Assembly (NCBI RefSeq): GCF_900167975.1
Contig: NZ_FUZU01000002.1
Coordinates: 193,501-257,500, forward strand
DNA: 64,000 nucleotides
Source of the DNA: Ohtaekwangia koreensis
GTDB taxonomy: Bacteria; Bacteroidota; Bacteroidia; Cytophagales; Cyclobacteriaceae
Direction: 5' to 3'
Below the pieces are notes generated by a model. That model saw only the letters and a list, made by a program, of their open reading frames with translations, was not told the DNA's origin and did not search any database. A program made the translations under genes and the position numbers. The number at the start of each line of letters is the position of its first letter. The stretch's first letter is position 1. Of the stretch, positions 22,136 through 28,650 are shown piece by piece.

Positions 22136-23650
22136 TCAAGCCCAGAATTTCCACCAGGGCTTTTTCTTTTGTGCTGCCTGCTCTTCTGTTTGAACAGCTG
22201 CTGCTGTCTGCGGTGGCTTTGGCTTGTGCTTTATGATATGCTTAAATCCGTGTGTCTCTAAAATTTTATTGGTTCGCTCTACAAATGGTTTACCTTTTAT
22301 AGGGTCGACCATGGCTACAAAACTTGCATATCCTTTTATGGAGGCCAGCAGATTTGGTGAGTTCTTCCAATGTTTACCTTCCAGTGTGCCGTCCTTTTCA
22401 ATTTGAAAGAGTAAAGCTCTGAAACGATCAAGCTCTTTGGCGTTCACTGCTGGCTTATCATTTACAATTACTCCGGTAACTTCTTTTCGTGCCCCTTTGC
22501 GCAGCACTCGAAATTTATCAGGATGAATAGTAAGGTTTTCTTCCTTGATAATTCTTTTGATGAAGCCTAGTAATGTTTTCGTGTTGTTCACGTTTTCCCC
22601 CGAAGCAGAGAAGGTAAGGTCATCTGCATAACGGGTATAGGCAAAGTTTAATTTCGAAGCTATACCTTTTAACCGGGCATCAAGCTTACGACAAATTATA
22701 TTGGTTATAGCCGGGCTGGTTGGAGCTCCTTGTGGAAGAAATCTGTCAATGCCCGCTGCATAGTATATTTCACCATCAAGCTCAATCTGGTCGCATTCTG
22801 ATTCTGTAGAGATCAATCCGAATATAGTAGACAGTTGTTCGGAGTAACCAAGCGATCTATAGAGACCTTTTACACGCTGGTAGCTGATTGTAGGAAAAAA
22901 ATCTTTCAGATCTATATTGATAACAACTTCTGCTTTTACATGAGGCAATGCATTAGTAACGATAGACCGCTTCATCACAAAGCCGTGTGCATGGTCATCT
23001 ATCGATACTTTGTTGAGTATATTCTCGAGAATCCAGTGCTGCGCTTTTTTAAGGCGCGGCATCGGTGTTGAGATCAATCTCTTCCCCCCGGTTTTTTTAG
23101 GTATATAAAAGCGTTTATAGTGATTGATTTTACTAACGGTACGGTTATACGCCAGAAAGCGAAGTTCACCAACGGTTATACCCATCGCGTTCGCAAGTTC
23201 ATCCGCCATGTGCATCTCCGGCAACTGATATGTTGCCAGTTTAGTTAGGTCACTTGCTTTATTGTTTAATCCCTTCGATACATCTTCACCGAGGTATATA
23301 ATATCTTTCTCCTTACGCTCTTTCCATTGTGCTGCCTTTGCTTCACGTTTTTGCTTCCGGAGTTTTTTATTCTCTTCACGCTTCAGACGTGATTGCTCCA
23401 GGCGTGCCTTGCGAATTTCTTTGAGCGCCTCTTCCTTGTTTTTGTATTTGCGTTGCTGATCCAGCAGCACGTGAAGTTCCTGTGTAAGTATAGATTCTTT
23501 GGTGATGAGAATTTCAGGCAGCGAAGGAATGCCATCATCTTTTTTCCAGAAGCCGAGGCGCTTCATCTCTTCCAATATAACAGAATCACGTGTGGAAGCT
23601 TTAATCCTGTCGTAGAGTTGCTGACGGGTAACTTGCGAGTTGTCTGCCAT
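22136..23650 (-). CDS. Retron reverse transcriptase with an N-terminal charged extension
   Basis: A 504-residue reverse transcriptase. Core motifs are visible: INIDLKDFFPTI (D247), LPQGAPTSPAITNIICRKLD (about 305-324), the catalytic YADD (341-344, in TRYADDLTFS), and VTGVIVN (391-397), the VTG motif typical of retron enzymes. The LPQG form rules out a diversity-generating type. Retron enzymes are usually 300-400 residues; here about 150 extra N-terminal residues form a Lys/Glu-rich coiled coil (about 55-118), and a Pro/Gln tail ends KKKPWWKFWA. The start lies 14 bp after the ncRNA end. It is the last gene of the WGR, SWIM, ncRNA, RT series and makes msDNA from the RNA. Confidence 0.94.
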   Translation of the reverse strand: MADNSQVTRQQLYDRIKASTRDSVILEEMKRLGFWKKDDGIPSLPEILITKESILTQELHVLLDQQRKYKNKEEALKEIRKARLEQSRLKREENKKLRKQKREAKAAQWKERKEKDIIYLGEDVSKGLNNKASDLTKLATYQLPEMHMADELANAMGITVGELRFLAYNRTVSKINHYKRFYIPKKTGGKRLISTPMPRLKKAQHWILENILNKVSIDDHAHGFVMKRSIVTNALPHVKAEVVINIDLKDFFPTISYQRVKGLYRSLGYSEQLSTIFGLISTESECDQIELDGEIYYAAGIDRFLPQGAPTSPAITNIICRKLDARLKGIASKLNFAYTRYADDLTFSASGENVNNTKTLLGFIKRIIKEENLTIHPDKFRVLRKGARKEVTGVIVNDKPAVNAKELDRFRALLFQIEKDGTLEGKHWKNSPNLLASIKGYASFVAMVDPIKGKPFVERTNKILETHGFKHIIKHKPKPPQTAAAVQTEEQAAQKKKPWWKFWA

Positions 23651-23664
23651 AGGTTAGAAAAAAT

Positions 23665-23882
23665 GGTAGCGGAGGATACCTTCGTCATGCTGAGGACTGG
23701 ATCGGTCAACTCAAGCGAGACGCTACCAGTACGTTATTTCAATTCCCGGAATTCGCACCGGAAATGACGTACTGGTAGCAGGATCGCACAGTTAAGAACG
23801 GGCCAGTGGCGCGTTAGTAAGCTGTGTACAGGGACGGTGATACACCGCCCGGATTGCAAGGTTTTTATACCCTTCCGCTACC
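23665..23882 (-). ncRNA. Retron msr-msd non-coding RNA
   Basis: A structured, gene-free stretch of about 218 nt directly upstream of the reverse transcriptase. Its ends are complementary: GGTAGCGGA at the 5' end (23874-23882) pairs with TCCGCTACC at the 3' end (23665-23673), as the a1/a2 repeats of a retron do. Between them are a hairpin at about 23832-23850 (8 bp, 3-nt loop), a longer one at 23787-23826 (CACAG/CTGTG, TTA/TAA, AACG/CGTT and GCC/GGC stacked with symmetric bulges), and a 19-bp msd-type stem at 23722-23779. The layout matches msr then msd. The branching guanosine could not be fixed by eye. Confidence 0.88.
23722..23779 (-). repeat. 19-bp msd stem of the retron RNA
   Basis: Arms 23761-23779 and 23722-23740 are complementary over 19 positions with a single G-U pair; the loop is 20 nt (23741-23760) and can form a small inner CCGG-type hairpin. 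This is the most stable element of the ncRNA and the expected DNA part of the msDNA. Confidence 0.85.
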
Positions 23883-23886
23883 GTGT

Positions 23887-23918
23887 TAAAACTAATTTTA
23901 TAATTATACTTTGCAAAA
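23887..23918 (-). promoter_or_regulatory. Candidate promoter of the retron RNA
   Basis: On the minus strand, TTTTGC (23913-23918) and TAGTTTTA (23887-23894) resemble the Bacteroidota -33 and -7 elements (TTG ... TAnnTTTG, one mismatch in the last base) with 18 bp between them. They lie between the SWIM gene stop and the ncRNA, and predict transcription starting within a few bases of the a1 repeat. Confidence 0.5.
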
Positions 23919-23923
23919 TTTTA

Positions 23924-25561
23924 TTACTCCTTTTCTCGTAATGCTATTCGTAAAGCAAGCATGTGCTCGCACGGACCTTGCATCAATTTATTCTGCTGGT
24001 AAAAATTACAGGTACATTTCCCACTTATCGCCCGCTCATCTGTGTCAATCAACAACTCGGGTTGATACGTTTTGTCTTTATCTTTTACCGTTCCACTCAA
24101 TGCCTTCTTTCCTTCGCGGTTGATATATATACTTGCCGTTACATTCTTCGTCAACACAAAACGAGTTGCAGCTTCTTCGCGCGGGTTGGCAAAACGCAGC
24201 TCTTCCATTGGAAGCGACTCGCGGGATAATTCACGAATTCGGTAAGAGTTATTATTAATATCATAAATCACTCTGCCAACTTGTGTAAAAGCAGAAAGAG
24301 CACCCAACACAATTTTCTTGTCAAGGTTCAGCCGGACCGCAAGACTCTCCGGTTTTTCAACCCAGTTTTCCCGTAGACCGGTATATACCTTTTGCATCGT
24401 CATGCTGTCCACCTCGATGCGCGGTGCCAGGAGATCGAAATTACCAAGTCGCGACCAGTCATTTACGGTCCAGCCAGACAACCCCAATGTAAAATTAAGA
24501 TCACCCAGGTCCGCTATATAAAACGATGGAAGCCCTGAACCCAGTAGTACCACTTTAAAGTGATTCGCTACCGGGATAAGTCTTTCGAGTAATAGTAATC
24601 TTCGCCTTCCCCACACACGTACCTCTCTGGCCTCAGTACCTTCATATATAGTGCGCCCGCATTTCACTTCGTAGTTCCACGGTTCAAAAATCAGCTTTAC
24701 TGGTTCACCCGGTTTCAAAACCCAACGCAAAGATCGCGGCCCTTCTTTCTCCTTATACCTTCGCAGCATAAAGCAAATATTATATACATCCATGGGATGT
24801 AGATTGAAAGATGTAGCGGGTATAGTCATCGCCGAGCTCACTTGCAGAAACCCTCGCACCCAACTTGCCGGCACATCAATCTTTACTTCTTTATAGCTTT
24901 CTTCTCGAGTCGTTTGTACCTCGAAGCCGGAAGGATCGATAGCAAAGTGCGTCTCTTTGTATTCACGGATCTTCTGAAATTCATTATATAGATCTGAAGA
25001 GTAGTCAATATTGGTTGTGCCGCACTTGAACTCATTTACTTTATTAAATACATTATAGTTACAGCCAACTTTTCCATATGAAGATTCATCCTGGCTAAAG
25101 CATTCAAAAAACAATTCATCCGGATGCACGGTGATCACCGGGTCCAACACGATCCACTGATCACGGTTAGCATGATATAGATAGTCGAAATATTTACGCT
25201 TCGCTTTATGAAACGGCCCGCTGATTTCTTCCTTCTGCCTGCGTATAGTTTCAAGTTCCGTGCGTACTGCTTTCAGCTTCTGTTCCACTTCAACCGAGCC
25301 ACGCATATATTCCGCCAGCCATATATCTTCCTGCTGCTTCGCCCACTCTTTATAATCTGATTTATCCTTTGGCTTAAATCTAAAATCCGACACAACGATA
25401 TCATGCAATGCAGAAATGGCTTCGCGAAAAGGTATATGTTTATTCAGGTATCCTGAAAAGTAAGTAGGATCTCGGTATACATCAGGCGCAAAGCTCATGT
25501 TGGTAGCATGTGCATTGCCTGTAACAGCTGTATCGCCTTTAAATTTATAGTTAAACTCCAT
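23924..25561 (-). CDS. SWIM zinc-finger protein with winged helix (retron partner, WHSWIM type)
   Basis: A 545-residue protein. The C-terminus carries a SWIM finger: C516-x-C518, then C531-x-H533 (GKCTCNFYQ ... GPCEHML). Before it lies a winged-helix-like segment (LDKKIVLGALSAFTQVGRVIYD). The N-terminal 400 residues are mixed alpha/beta with no motif I can name. It follows the WGR/HEAT gene by 5 bp and its stop is 41 bp before the retron RNA. In the retron classification I recall, a WHSWIM protein plus an ARM-repeat protein defines type XIII. A DNA-sensing or effector role is inference. E. coli yehQ is a distant analogue with a SWIM finger next to a WGR protein. Confidence 0.85.
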   Translation of the reverse strand: MEFNYKFKGDTAVTGNAHATNMSFAPDVYRDPTYFSGYLNKHIPFREAISALHDIVVSDFRFKPKDKSDYKEWAKQQEDIWLAEYMRGSVEVEQKLKAVRTELETIRRQKEEISGPFHKAKRKYFDYLYHANRDQWIVLDPVITVHPDELFFECFSQDESSYGKVGCNYNVFNKVNEFKCGTTNIDYSSDLYNEFQKIREYKETHFAIDPSGFEVQTTREESYKEVKIDVPASWVRGFLQVSSAMTIPATSFNLHPMDVYNICFMLRRYKEKEGPRSLRWVLKPGEPVKLIFEPWNYEVKCGRTIYEGTEAREVRVWGRRRLLLLERLIPVANHFKVVLLGSGLPSFYIADLGDLNFTLGLSGWTVNDWSRLGNFDLLAPRIEVDSMTMQKVYTGLRENWVEKPESLAVRLNLDKKIVLGALSAFTQVGRVIYDINNNSYRIRELSRESLPMEELRFANPREEAATRFVLTKNVTASIYINREGKKALSGTVKDKDKTYQPELLIDTDERAISGKCTCNFYQQNKLMQGPCEHMLALRIALREKE

Positions 25562-25566
25562 ACTAC

Positions 25567-28500
25567 TTACTCTTTAACATAGTCTGAATACTGTTTCAAA
25601 ACGAGTGGCGATTGAATGGCTGGATACCGGGTGCGAATATCACGAAGTGCAGCTATACATTCCGCTCTTTCGGTAATGGCAACGGAGACTGATACTCTCG
25701 TAAAAATATCAGATGCTATTTTAGCTGTCTCTTCATTCTTAAGTGACTCCTTCCTGAGAAAATCCATTACTCTGATCTTCGCGACTCTGCCTTTGTTCAC
25801 CTGCGAAAGAAGCGTAATGAAATATGATTTCAGTTCCTGTATGATCTCGTAATTATCCGCTGCGTATTTCTCAAGATAAGCGGTTGTAAACAACTGCACT
25901 TTTGTATTGGGATGCTGACTTAATTTCAACAGATACTCCATTCCATTTTCTGCCTGAAAAAACTTTGTGATCATCTCGCGGCCGAAATCCTGAACATCTT
26001 CCCGTACGGTATCACACAGTGCTATCAGCAGGTCAGTTGTCCAATCGGAAGAAGAGAATGTATTCCGGAAGTAATCAAAAGCGAAAATGCGTGTATCATC
26101 CCAATACGAATCCGTTATACGCAATGCTTCCTCTTTATCAGCCTTAACGCGCTCCGGATATTTCTTGAATATATTCCAGGTATATACGCGTACTTCCTGA
26201 AGTGGATTGCTTCCAAGCTTCACCAGTTCAGATATAGTCAACTCTTCCTCCTTGATATTTTTCCTCAATAATATCAATCCCATTTGCTGCGCAGCCTTGA
26301 ACTTCGACTGAAGAAGAAGTAATGATCTTTCTTTTGGAATAATGGATAAACTTTCACTCAACTCATTGGCGAGTAAATGCAAAAGATCATCGTGCAATCC
26401 TTCGTATGATTCCTTCATGAGAAAGGCCGGCACAAAAAGATCAACCAGCTCAGTGCCAAAGGAAGGGTATGCTTTTGTAAGCTTGAAGATCAAAGGCTTC
26501 ACTGCATTTCTAACGTCAGGCAATGATGAGAGACAAAAGCTCACGAGTATCTCTTTCTTCGCGAGTAAAGCATTTTCGGGAAACCGGCCTAACAACGCAA
26601 TGCCTATACCGCGTGAATGTATATTATTGGATTGCAATAATATTTGCAGAAAATCTTCCGGTAGGTTCTCCGCATTTACTTCATGCATCATCAGAATCTT
26701 TCCGGCCAGTGTATGAATTTCTTCCGCCTGATGACGGAACAGATCTTTGACTATATCCAGACTAATGTTTCGCAGGTTTCCTGAGAAGGAAATTACCAAT
26801 GTATCGGAGAGCTGTGATACGAGACGTTTGTCTTCGTCTGTCTCTATATCCATGGTAACGAGGTGAGAAATTGTTTTCGCTATAATAATTTCGGCTTGCT
26901 CCCTGGTGAAGGTGACCGTTGTTAAAAATCCGCGCAGCCATGCATGGGCATCGGATTTTTTCATCTTCAAAAGATCCGTAACAAATTCCGTGTCCGATAA
27001 TAATGTAGCCTTCTGTTCTACGATCCACTGCTCTGCCTGCGCTCGTGCTTCAGCCAGACTATTATCGAGCATCGCCTTCAATAACAACTTGTCGGGTATA
27101 TTTCGATCATACTTCTTTCGTGCCAACGCCAGGCCTAGCTGTTGAGTCTGCACAAAAGCAGACTGCAAAAAATTCAGTACATGCGACATGTCAACCTGGT
27201 TTTCAAAACCAGGGTTCGCCTGAAATACCTTTATAGCAAATTCATGTACGCGAAGCGATTTACTAAACGACAACAATTGAATAATCTCGTCCGGAGCCTT
27301 GTCCCATAAGTGCGGGAAAGCTTCTTCCCGTGTTGAAGGTGCAGCATCACCCGGGATATAGGGTGCTACACATACCCATGCTGTTTCTTTCTGAATATAC
27401 CTTGGACTATTCTTATACAGTATTGTACTAAACGACTGAAAGTTGCTATAGCTATCAAAATGTATAACACGTTCCTGCCGGATGTTGCGTCTGGTTTCGG
27501 TGTTATACTGATACGAGATATCGGATACGTGGTAGGGAGGTGTGAGGTCTTTTGTATCATCAAACGCCAGCAGTATAGCAGAGGCCATCTCTGTATAGGA
27601 TGATTCATTTGCCTCTCCATAGTGACGAAGGAAGCGAAGAACACGCTTTGTCAGGTAACCTTTCGTTTTGTTGGAGAAGGCCATGTTCTTCTTATGGTCG
27701 GGCCCCATCCACGGATTGGATCTATAGCCTGCCGGTTTCTTCTCAACATTCTTGGCGATTACACCATAGGTTGAATAATCTTCCAGCATTTCTGCTGTCT
27801 TGAAAATATGGCGTATATACTTGAAATAATTTATCGTCAACGGTATATCTTCCAGCACCTTCATGAACACAGCATGTAGTGCGGGGTCTTGTCGCGAGAG
27901 CTGGTATATACCGATCAGATATTCGTTCGAAGCCGTCTTTAATTCGAACAGGAATTCACGCAACTGCTTCTCAATGAGTTTATAATTCCTTTCACCTATA
28001 CTTTTTTGAAATGGGAGCGGTAACGTCTGAATAATGGCTTGATTCAGTACTTCCTTGTCTTTGCCTTCGGAGAATTTAAGCAGTACTTCCTGCAGCAATT
28101 GCTTTGTATGAGGTTGCAGCGGTTTCGACTGCAGGTCTTGTAAAAAAGGAAGTGCATTATCGGTTCCACATCTTCCGATAGACCAGATGACAGAGTATAT
28201 ATTGAAAGGATCTGAAGAATCAGTAAGTTTAATACTATAGGGAATCGCTTCTGTGATCTTTAGATCGCCCGCCCGCCAGATAACTCTCGACAACGGCCAG
28301 GCTTCCGGTTCTTCTCCGGCCACAGCCGTTTTCAGAATCTTAATGATTGCCTTTTTACGTTTATCGGTTCCGGGCTTTACCTTCGATTCTGTCGAGGTGA
28401 TGACCTGCGCTTCTCCGGCAGCTACATATCCTTTTTTGCGCTTCTCTTGTTCGAGTGCATCAAACACCTTCTCAGCTTCCTGAAGCCCTACCGGGAAAAT

Positions 28501-28650
28501 GGTTTTAGTACCATCCTTTAAGGCAGCTCCCCGTCTTCCATAACGAAAGTTTACTATATACCCTTCGCCTGCTTCACAAAGATCAATTTCATATACCTTA
28601 TCAGAAGAACCTTCCTGAAAAAACAGCTTGACTTGCTTTACTAGTTTCAA
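25567..28650 (-). CDS. WGR domain plus HEAT/ARM-repeat protein (retron partner)
   Basis: A 1027-residue protein. Residues about 1-80 form a WGR domain (KLFFQEGSSDKVYEIDL, then VNFRYGRRGAALKDGT), a nucleic-acid or PARP-associated module. From about 130 to the end the protein is helical with repeated two-helix units typical of HEAT/ARM solenoids, such as VRNAVKPLIFKL and VRVYTWNIFKKYPERV. It resembles the MolR/YehI group. It is the first gene of the retron operon and the SWIM gene follows by 5 bp. I infer an effector or scaffold role in the retron; no enzymatic site is visible to me. Confidence 0.88.
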   Translation of the reverse strand: MKLVKQVKLFFQEGSSDKVYEIDLCEAGEGYIVNFRYGRRGAALKDGTKTIFPVGLQEAEKVFDALEQEKRKKGYVAAGEAQVITSTESKVKPGTDKRKKAIIKILKTAVAGEEPEAWPLSRVIWRAGDLKITEAIPYSIKLTDSSDPFNIYSVIWSIGRCGTDNALPFLQDLQSKPLQPHTKQLLQEVLLKFSEGKDKEVLNQAIIQTLPLPFQKSIGERNYKLIEKQLREFLFELKTASNEYLIGIYQLSRQDPALHAVFMKVLEDIPLTINYFKYIRHIFKTAEMLEDYSTYGVIAKNVEKKPAGYRSNPWMGPDHKKNMAFSNKTKGYLTKRVLRFLRHYGEANESSYTEMASAILLAFDDTKDLTPPYHVSDISYQYNTETRRNIRQERVIHFDSYSNFQSFSTILYKNSPRYIQKETAWVCVAPYIPGDAAPSTREEAFPHLWDKAPDEIIQLLSFSKSLRVHEFAIKVFQANPGFENQVDMSHVLNFLQSAFVQTQQLGLALARKKYDRNIPDKLLLKAMLDNSLAEARAQAEQWIVEQKATLLSDTEFVTDLLKMKKSDAHAWLRGFLTTVTFTREQAEIIIAKTISHLVTMDIETDEDKRLVSQLSDTLVISFSGNLRNISLDIVKDLFRHQAEEIHTLAGKILMMHEVNAENLPEDFLQILLQSNNIHSRGIGIALLGRFPENALLAKKEILVSFCLSSLPDVRNAVKPLIFKLTKAYPSFGTELVDLFVPAFLMKESYEGLHDDLLHLLANELSESLSIIPKERSLLLLQSKFKAAQQMGLILLRKNIKEEELTISELVKLGSNPLQEVRVYTWNIFKKYPERVKADKEEALRITDSYWDDTRIFAFDYFRNTFSSSDWTTDLLIALCDTVREDVQDFGREMITKFFQAENGMEYLLKLSQHPNTKVQLFTTAYLEKYAADNYEIIQELKSYFITLLSQVNKGRVAKIRVMDFLRKESLKNEETAKIASDIFTRVSVSVAITERAECIAALRDIRTRYPAIQSPLVLKQYSDYVKE

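Follow-up and report, generated by a model that had tools for sequence, protein, structure and literature searches.

A type XIII retron of Ohtaekwangia koreensis with a partner protein predicted to adopt a sliding-clamp fold

The partner proteins of type XIII retrons show no evident toxic enzyme domain and therefore give little pointer to how the type works. What such a pair of proteins might do is the question raised by a locus of Ohtaekwangia koreensis, found in a 64,000-nucleotide (nt) stretch of DNA (contig NZ_FUZU01000002.1, positions 193,501 to 257,500) that we call the window. The locus is complete and chromosomal, and occupies window positions 22136–28650 on the minus strand, to which all of its features belong. 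Along that strand it encodes a WGR-HEAT protein (28650–25567), followed after 5 nt by a SWIM protein (25561–23924), a 218-nt non-coding RNA (ncRNA; 23882–23665) and a retron reverse transcriptase (RT; 23650–22136), with the two partner genes immediately upstream of, and co-directional with, the RNA and the RT. Our best explanation, to which we give a probability of roughly 0.4, is that this complete type XIII retron would, by analogy with other retrons, hold a clamp-fold/WGR-HEAT pair through its multicopy single-stranded DNA (msDNA) and free the pair on infection to stop replication.

The locus is almost certainly a member of retron type XIII, a known kind (the classification of retron types is reportedly that of Mestre et al.), because the PADLOC profiles for this type lead by wide margins. 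The RT scored 630 bits against RT_XIII and 294 bits against the next family; SWIM_XIII was the sole family to match the SWIM protein (779 bits); and the WGR-HEAT protein reached 1175 bits against WGR_XIII, followed by HEAT-ARM_XIII at 104 bits. Retron RT models of NCBIfam also matched the RT, all below their curated cut-offs (St85: 213 of 235 bits). A first-pass annotation of the same DNA had proposed type XIII and had described the two co-directional partner genes as 5 bp apart, and both statements hold. It had also named the grouping of the RT with retron RTs as a test, on which the PADLOC profiles and the sequence matches in the PDB agree. Partner conservation, its further concern, was followed in the best 80 of at least 363 relatives confirmed in a scan of genome contigs (loci are cited by handle, such as L036). 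With cut-offs of at least 500 bits for SWIM and at least 250 bits for WGR-HEAT, SWIM stood beside the RT in 71 of the 80 loci and WGR-HEAT in 66. These three profile scores, together with covariation of the ncRNA in 47 relatives, argue that the locus is not a product of chance.

The SWIM protein (545 residues) was modelled with AlphaFold2 from a 40-sequence alignment, which gave a mean predicted local distance difference test score (pLDDT) of 78.9 and a predicted template-modelling score of 0.74. In a Foldseek search of the PDB with this model, the best 50 of 471 matches (E ≤ 0.001) were all PCNA entries or PCNA complexes, with E of 2.0e-10 to 1.5e-08, probability 1.00 and sequence identity of 7–14%; template-modelling (TM) scores normalized to the target were 0.62–0.76, save for one 758-residue entry at 0.24. 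The 50 matches listed from a viral structure library comprised 24 named PCNA, 2 named DNA polymerase III beta and 24 without a telling name. The pipeline control, performed on the WGR-HEAT model only (pLDDT 89.1), returned helical solenoids: the best 50 of 185 matches (E ≤ 0.001) were helical-repeat solenoids by description, at low TM, with no clamp among them. On the strength of the model and these matches, we think it highly probable that the SWIM protein has a PCNA-type sliding-clamp fold, which would span residues ~34–361 (24479–25462; limits read from the model). Its predicted secondary structure is compatible with four beta-alpha-beta-beta-beta repeats in two domains, with a helical insert at residues 68–131 in the first repeat. 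We know of no other PCNA-type fold in a retron, and if the prediction is true, this would be the first one known to us.

Two helices of the second predicted clamp domain are basic, with mean net charges of +2.1 and +3.0, and positions R319-R321 and R327 are basic in 70 of 70 homologues. Beyond the clamp region, residues ~375–442 (24236–24439) form a winged-helix region according to predicted secondary structure and weak Pfam matches, no single winged-helix family matching more than 5 of the 40 homologues. The C-terminal SWIM zinc finger has the ligands C516-x-C518 ... C531-x-H533 (23963–24016), each at a frequency of 1.00 in 76 aligned homologues; Pfam SWIM matched all 40 homologues at E ≤ 10, and the window protein scored 17 bits, under the curated cut-off of 19.6. 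By sequence, the best match of the SWIM protein among solved structures had an E of only 0.16. An archaeal virus protein, picked as a PCNA reference by the fit of its length to a listed structure match, was rejected, as Pfam gave no PCNA match for it and its relatives were close copies.

The second partner, the WGR-HEAT protein (25567–28650), comprises 1027 residues from a TTG start, with a WGR domain at residues ~2–80 (Pfam WGR, 26.9 bits; cut-off 22) that precedes a long HEAT solenoid. Its N-terminal residues align with those of its relatives, whose starts were chosen by the analyst. Nine of its residues have a frequency of 1.00, seven of them in the C-terminal part (821–960). It is the less conserved of the two partners: identity to the window proteins in the aligned sets is 25–67% for WGR-HEAT versus 50–81% for SWIM.

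The RT (22136–23650) has 504 residues, of which ~1–135 form an N-terminal extension, and matches Pfam RVT_1 at 84.5 bits; it was placed in a tree of 82 RTs. The motifs NAxxH, YxDD and VTG are those of retron-clade RTs. Profiles, an 86-RT alignment and PDB sequence matches place the window RT in that clade, and it carries all three: the YADD (residues 341–344; 22619–22630) and VTG (391–393; 22472–22480; frequency 0.99 in the 86 RTs) already noted in the first pass, and NAxxH (233–237; 22940–22954), with N at 1.00, A at 0.99 and H at 1.00. The closest named relative lies on a 99% identical contig of a metagenome-assembled genome labelled 'uncultured Bacteroides sp.'; the next-closest RTs, at 73–76% identity, come from Bacteroidota such as Pseudochryseolinea and Parachryseolinea.

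In most RTs, the region after the RT domain consists of a linker that ends in an aromatic motif, which is WWKFW in the window (residues 499–503; 22142–22156), WWNIF in several loci in which the RT gene comes first (RT-first) and FFKK in many Flavobacteriaceae. Among the 80 RTs left after removal of six truncated or duplicate rows from the 86, WW or FW occurred in 57 tails versus 13.2 expected from shuffling, and WW, FW or a terminal aromatic pair in 75; under the patterns used, the tails of L033, L036, L055, L084 and L088 had neither. At a guess, the tail is a putative clamp-binding element. A hydropathy script found a membrane-like segment after the WW or FW, in a long C-terminal tail, in 13 of the 86 RTs, all from Pseudomonadota (L049, L050, L051, L054, L060, L062, L063, L066, L075, L083, L086, L089 and L091). 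A type XIII RT frame of 820 residues in L079 (positions 206–2665 of a 3-kb contig) has a 340-residue C-terminal extension of unassigned kind.

The ncRNA (23665–23882) measures exactly 218 nt from outer a1 to outer a2, as the first-pass annotation had it, with complementary ends directly upstream of the RT. Its fold energy is −95.2 kcal/mol, versus −63.1 (s.d. 4.6) kcal/mol for shuffled sequences (z = −7.05; 0 of 200 as good). The end repeats a1 (23867–23882) and a2 (23665–23680) form a duplex of −26.1 kcal/mol, matched by 1 of 100 shuffles. Beside this helix lies CUUGC (23856–23860), in which the G at 23857 is, from its position after the duplex and by analogy with known retrons, a candidate for the 2′-5′ branch nucleotide. 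The msr stem-loop SL1 (23832–23850) is followed by a helix that closes the msr onto the base of the msd (5′ arm, CACUGG..., 23796–23808; 3′ arm, ...CCAGU, 23696–23707) and by the msd hairpin (23715–23787). The msd stem reported earlier is present; its stated length of 19 bp is not, since the bulged stem has 22 pairs in the fold of the whole RNA and 27 when the msd is folded alone. Across 83 ncRNAs (of 93 matches, 10 duplicate, partial or weak ones being excluded), the msd stem has 24–44 pairs, with a median of 30. Among six close relatives, the stem arms are variable (5′ arm, 23767–23780, 47% mean identity over an overlapping 17-nt segment; 3′ arm, 23722–23734, 55% over an overlapping segment) compared with the msr at 90%, and the msd tip (23735–23766) is better conserved at 77%.

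Relatives of this RNA were extracted with the regular-expression anchors CUUGC, GAGU and CGA, which are invariant in the resulting alignment because they served as anchors. From 81 loci, 73 candidate cores were obtained; four were dropped (three doubtful, one with Ns), and 47 representatives of the remaining 69 were aligned. RNAalifold predicted 43 pairs, in 39 of which both sides changed at least once. Of the alignment cells, 88.2% were paired, versus 62.5% after shuffling and at most 41.9% after sliding, and the covariation score was 0.672 versus 0.215 and at most 0.143, respectively, the structure having been derived from the same alignment, which favours pairing. SL1 (helix 1) was paired in 98.4% of cells, with 6 of 8 pairs changed on both sides; helices 2 and 3, which close the msr onto the msd base, were paired in 96.2% and 90.2%, with two-sided changes in 8 of 10 pairs; helices 4–8 make up the msd hairpin. 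No Rfam family matched the window sequence at gathering score. The ncRNA is a covarying structured family without an Rfam counterpart.

A covariance model of the 47 sequences (R1; 204 bits for the window RNA, itself one of the 47) located the RNA in 78 of 84 sources (47 by construction; L087 partial), among them L025, L037, L059 and L083, where the anchor search had failed or had hit the wrong place; it found no ncRNA in L012, L021, L033, L055, L077 and L079. The window's genome has one match (150 of 840 candidates scored). When a2 was shuffled 100 times, no more than 2 of the shuffled sequences paired with a1 as well as the native one in 36 of the 47 representatives; in the other 11, 3–7 of 100 did, except in L067 (14), L043 (32) and L061 (41), which are RT-first loci with AT-rich ends.

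The distribution of the system is patchy. Among 395 genomes of the phylum, with at most three candidates scored per genome, the RT (E ≤ 1e-60) occurred in six, and the SWIM profile (E ≤ 1e-10) in the same six, the window's included. Five of the nine RT loci without SWIM are near contig ends (L024, L048, L055, L079 and L085), where genes are also seen cut (SWIM in L048, WGR in L085); WGR-HEAT matches of 152–207 bits, below the cut-off, occur in L085, L086 and L089. The gene order is RT-WGR-SWIM in 13 of the 66 loci with WGR-HEAT, the ncRNA still preceding the RT (in L087 it is cut by the contig end). The type XIII retron of L087 (175–6655) comes from a contig with the label Limnohabitans (Pseudomonadota), and its RT sits inside the Bacteroidota RT-first clade, a placement that suggests either horizontal transfer or a mis-binned contig. 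A deep relative, L012 (5372–9657), pairs a SWIM protein (565 bits) with an 826-residue solenoid whose match to WGR_XIII is confined to the C-terminal part of the profile. A WGR-beta-propeller protein is encoded upstream of the RT in L021 (8143–9696), which has no SWIM; L032 (4807–6243) encodes one beside its RT in addition to the usual partners. L052 (2709–4491) has an RT and a full ncRNA with neither partner within 3 kb upstream or 10 kb downstream, and a penicillin-binding protein gene upstream of the RT.

How might these parts work together? Retrons are established as antiviral reverse-transcriptase systems. In other retrons, the RT–msDNA complex keeps an effector inactive, and the effector is set free when phage proteins bind, modify or destroy the msDNA; msDNA regulates the effectors of Eco8, Ec86 and Ec83 (PMC13158370). 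Our proposal for the window is modelled on this control. The RT would reverse-transcribe the msd portion of the 218-nt RNA, yielding RNA-linked msDNA with a DNA hairpin of ~27 bp. In the resting cell, the RT–msDNA complex would use the msd duplex to keep the clamp-fold protein and WGR-HEAT inactive as a pair, the large WGR-HEAT solenoid probably forming a bridge between the clamp-fold protein, RT and DNA ends. Phage infection would alter the msDNA and release the clamp-fold protein, which would bind or encircle replicating DNA and halt replication, such that the infected cell releases no phage. The data themselves show the anatomy of the genes and the RNA, their conservation and the joint occurrence of RT and SWIM, and the clamp fold is predicted; we infer msDNA formation, the trigger, ring formation and the replication block, the last being the weakest step; a clamp-based action on DNA is tentative, at somewhat less than an even chance, and a role of the locus in phage defence is likewise taken over from the other retrons.

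Several observations weigh against this proposal. The helices of the first clamp domain that would line a ring lack a basic character, with mean net charges of −0.7 and +0.4. Scans of the 40 SWIM homologues with Pfam and PHROGs gave no clamp family (25 families listed of 46 and 60, respectively), and the fold comes from an AlphaFold2 monomer (40-sequence alignment, pLDDT 78.9) compared by a single structural aligner. Profile scans with Pfam and NCBIfam found no toxic enzyme domain in SWIM or WGR-HEAT. SWIM is missing where it might be expected in L021, L033, L052 and L077, of which L033 has only 1.6 kb upstream. Finally, no defence island is obvious: among the 10 flanking proteins, the only PADLOC matches were those of ZorB (at most 35 bits) to an OmpA-domain protein.

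The same evidence can be read with the SWIM protein as an assembly or processivity partner of the RT on the msd duplex, perhaps held by the aromatic tail of the RT, and with WGR-HEAT as the effector. That RT and SWIM turn up together in the same 6 of 395 genomes fits this arrangement, as does the stronger conservation of SWIM, which is expected of a core part of the machine; flavobacterial tails such as KVSSFFKK, moreover, resemble clamp-binding peptides. However, the RT of L036 lacks the tail motif in a locus with both partners, no enzyme domain is seen in WGR-HEAT, and the deep relative L012 retains SWIM beside a solenoid that shows no WGR domain. We regard this arrangement as unlikely. Alternatively, the clamp fold may be real but serve as a scaffold only, with ring formation and encircling lost and with DNA or RNA bound by the winged helix and the SWIM finger. 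The non-basic helices of the first domain and the large helical insert in its first repeat would suit a scaffold, and certain known clamp-fold proteins work without ring closure. By contrast, the second domain has two strongly basic helices, whose arginines reach a frequency of 1.00, and a purely scaffolding role seems unlikely.

A third alternative arises from the ncRNAs of relatives. The window has a single copy, but in 8 of 78 loci with an RNA, two to four tandem copies precede one RT: four in L038 (8900–9902), three in L048 (678–1429), L027 (1606–2708) and L024 (1–913; one cut by the contig end), and two in L026 (9242–9836), L034 (8801–9643), L046 (9423–9907) and L069 (9517–9873; one partial, with Ns). 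Two weak minus-strand matches (E 0.009 and 0.16) were set aside in this count. The array-bearing loci belong to Acidobacteriota and Saprospiraceae. In the seven arrays compared (L069 was excluded), the msd stems and the a1/a2 ends differ more than the framework. Framework versus stem identity within arrays was 94% versus 46% in L038, 97% versus 37% (range 21–65%) in L048, 97% versus 47% in L026 and 85% versus 41% in L046. The msr was 76% and 56% identical in L034 and L027, with stem arms at 25–35%, and the contrast was smaller in L024 (msr 74%, stem arms 59% and 65%). In 17 of 18 array copies, the exception being the first copy of L034, a copy's own a2 is the best partner of its a1. When L038 is compared with L048, framework identity is 93% and stem identity 39%, close to the values within L038. 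Because this divergence barely differs from that within one array, it gives no evidence of recent copying, and the framework, being highly conserved between loci, cannot date the duplications.

These arrays could be read as modular, clamp-based immunity in which one RT serves one to four ncRNAs with a fixed framework, mutually orthogonal a1/a2 ends and exchangeable msd stems of ~14–17 bp; the duplex stems would form a set of baits for DNA-binding, DNA-modifying or DNA-cutting phage proteins, with the clamp-fold partner sitting on the duplex and reading out the loss of a stem. We consider this rather improbable as an account of type XIII. We do not claim fast-changing stems as a general rule: six close relatives of the window show the contrast clearly, and two single-copy groups show it weakly or not at all (stems 73% versus 80% in L019, L020 and L022; 73% and 85% versus 81% in six RT-first loci), and, because the RTs of the window's group are 73–76% identical, drift with pairing kept could explain the change there. 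Palindromic msd stems were also dropped as a general feature: 6 of 70 distinct 14-nt segments scored at p < 0.05 against shuffles, compared with 3 of 70 for a control segment (mean score 0.94 versus 0.49 shuffled; control 0.49 versus 0.37). Five of the six have a common pattern, ACYATAG, and two-fold symmetric msd sites may exist in one clade. Whatever their role, the natural tandem arrays indicate how one RT might run more than one msDNA, a point of interest for retron biology and for retron-based editing tools.

Action at the membrane, with the RT tail anchoring the complex and activation damaging the membrane, is improbable. Membrane-like tail segments occur in the 13 pseudomonadotal RTs, flavobacterial tails look like amphipathic helices and tails elsewhere are rich in W. 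However, in 13 of 13 the WW or FW comes before the membrane-like segment, and the two are thus distinct; the operon has no effector-like membrane protein, and the evidence consists of hydropathy. That the locus is a degenerate or non-defence element, a housekeeping RT with its RNA unrelated to phage, is highly improbable: there is no convincing defence gene among the 10 neighbours and no experiment on type XIII appears in the relevant passage of the one paper found to name it, but the frames and motifs are intact, covariation is strong, and the patchy occurrence across the phylum (6 of 395 genomes) and the Limnohabitans RT in a Bacteroidota clade are as defence systems show.

The explanation that we prefer, release of a clamp-fold/WGR-HEAT pair from msDNA, would give a little-studied retron type a testable mechanism. 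The predicted clamp fold lies in the better conserved partner and poses a direct question: is it the msDNA hairpin or the replication fork that is encircled? The window's genome (7.24 Mb in 6 contigs) contains a single WGR-domain match and no Pfam SWIM match at E ≤ 0.001; the locus's own SWIM finger scores under the curated cut-off of that family. No mobile element was indicated by RT matches, as none of the 8 phage records and one of the 34 plasmid records that matched covered 80% of the RT, and viral contigs gave one weak RT match only. In the literature, type XIII is named as a PADLOC match in Variovorax, with no experiment in the part of that paper available (PMC11953036). Searches found no retron described with WHSWIM, or with SWIM plus WGR, and no statement of a clamp fold or an ncRNA model for type XIII, of which an earlier mention is possible. 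By title, nothing on clamps in defence systems or on natural tandem retron ncRNAs appeared among the listed papers, and here too an earlier mention may exist; PMC12548924, which cites engineered retron arrays, does not mention XIII, SWIM, WGR or tandem.

Compared with known type XIII retrons, the locus has identical gene content, namely the same three proteins, an RT with NAxxH, YADD and VTG, and an ncRNA between the partners and the RT; what is added here is the ncRNA model and the clamp fold predicted for the SWIM protein. The likeness to PCNA-type clamps is one of predicted fold over residues ~34–361. Unlike those clamps, the SWIM protein has only 7–14% identity to the listed PDB matches, a helical insert in the first repeat, non-basic first-domain helices, and an added winged helix and SWIM finger, and its operon lacks a clamp loader. 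The yehI/yehQ region of E. coli K-12 likewise has a SWIM protein clustered with WGR-type, MoxR and VWA genes, and we take YehI (DUF4132 in its database record) to be WGR-HEAT-like; kinship with YehI and YehQ was rejected, as BLASTP gave no similarity (best E 1.4 and 0.12). With Ec86 (Eco1), Ec83 and Eco8, the window RT has its core in common, as PDB sequence matches indicate, and the RT–RNA–effector logic is taken as shared, following PMC13158370. By contrast with these three retrons, the window's partners are proteins without a detected enzyme domain, a predicted clamp-fold protein and a WGR-HEAT solenoid, and its RT carries an N-terminal extension of ~130–135 residues and an aromatic tail.

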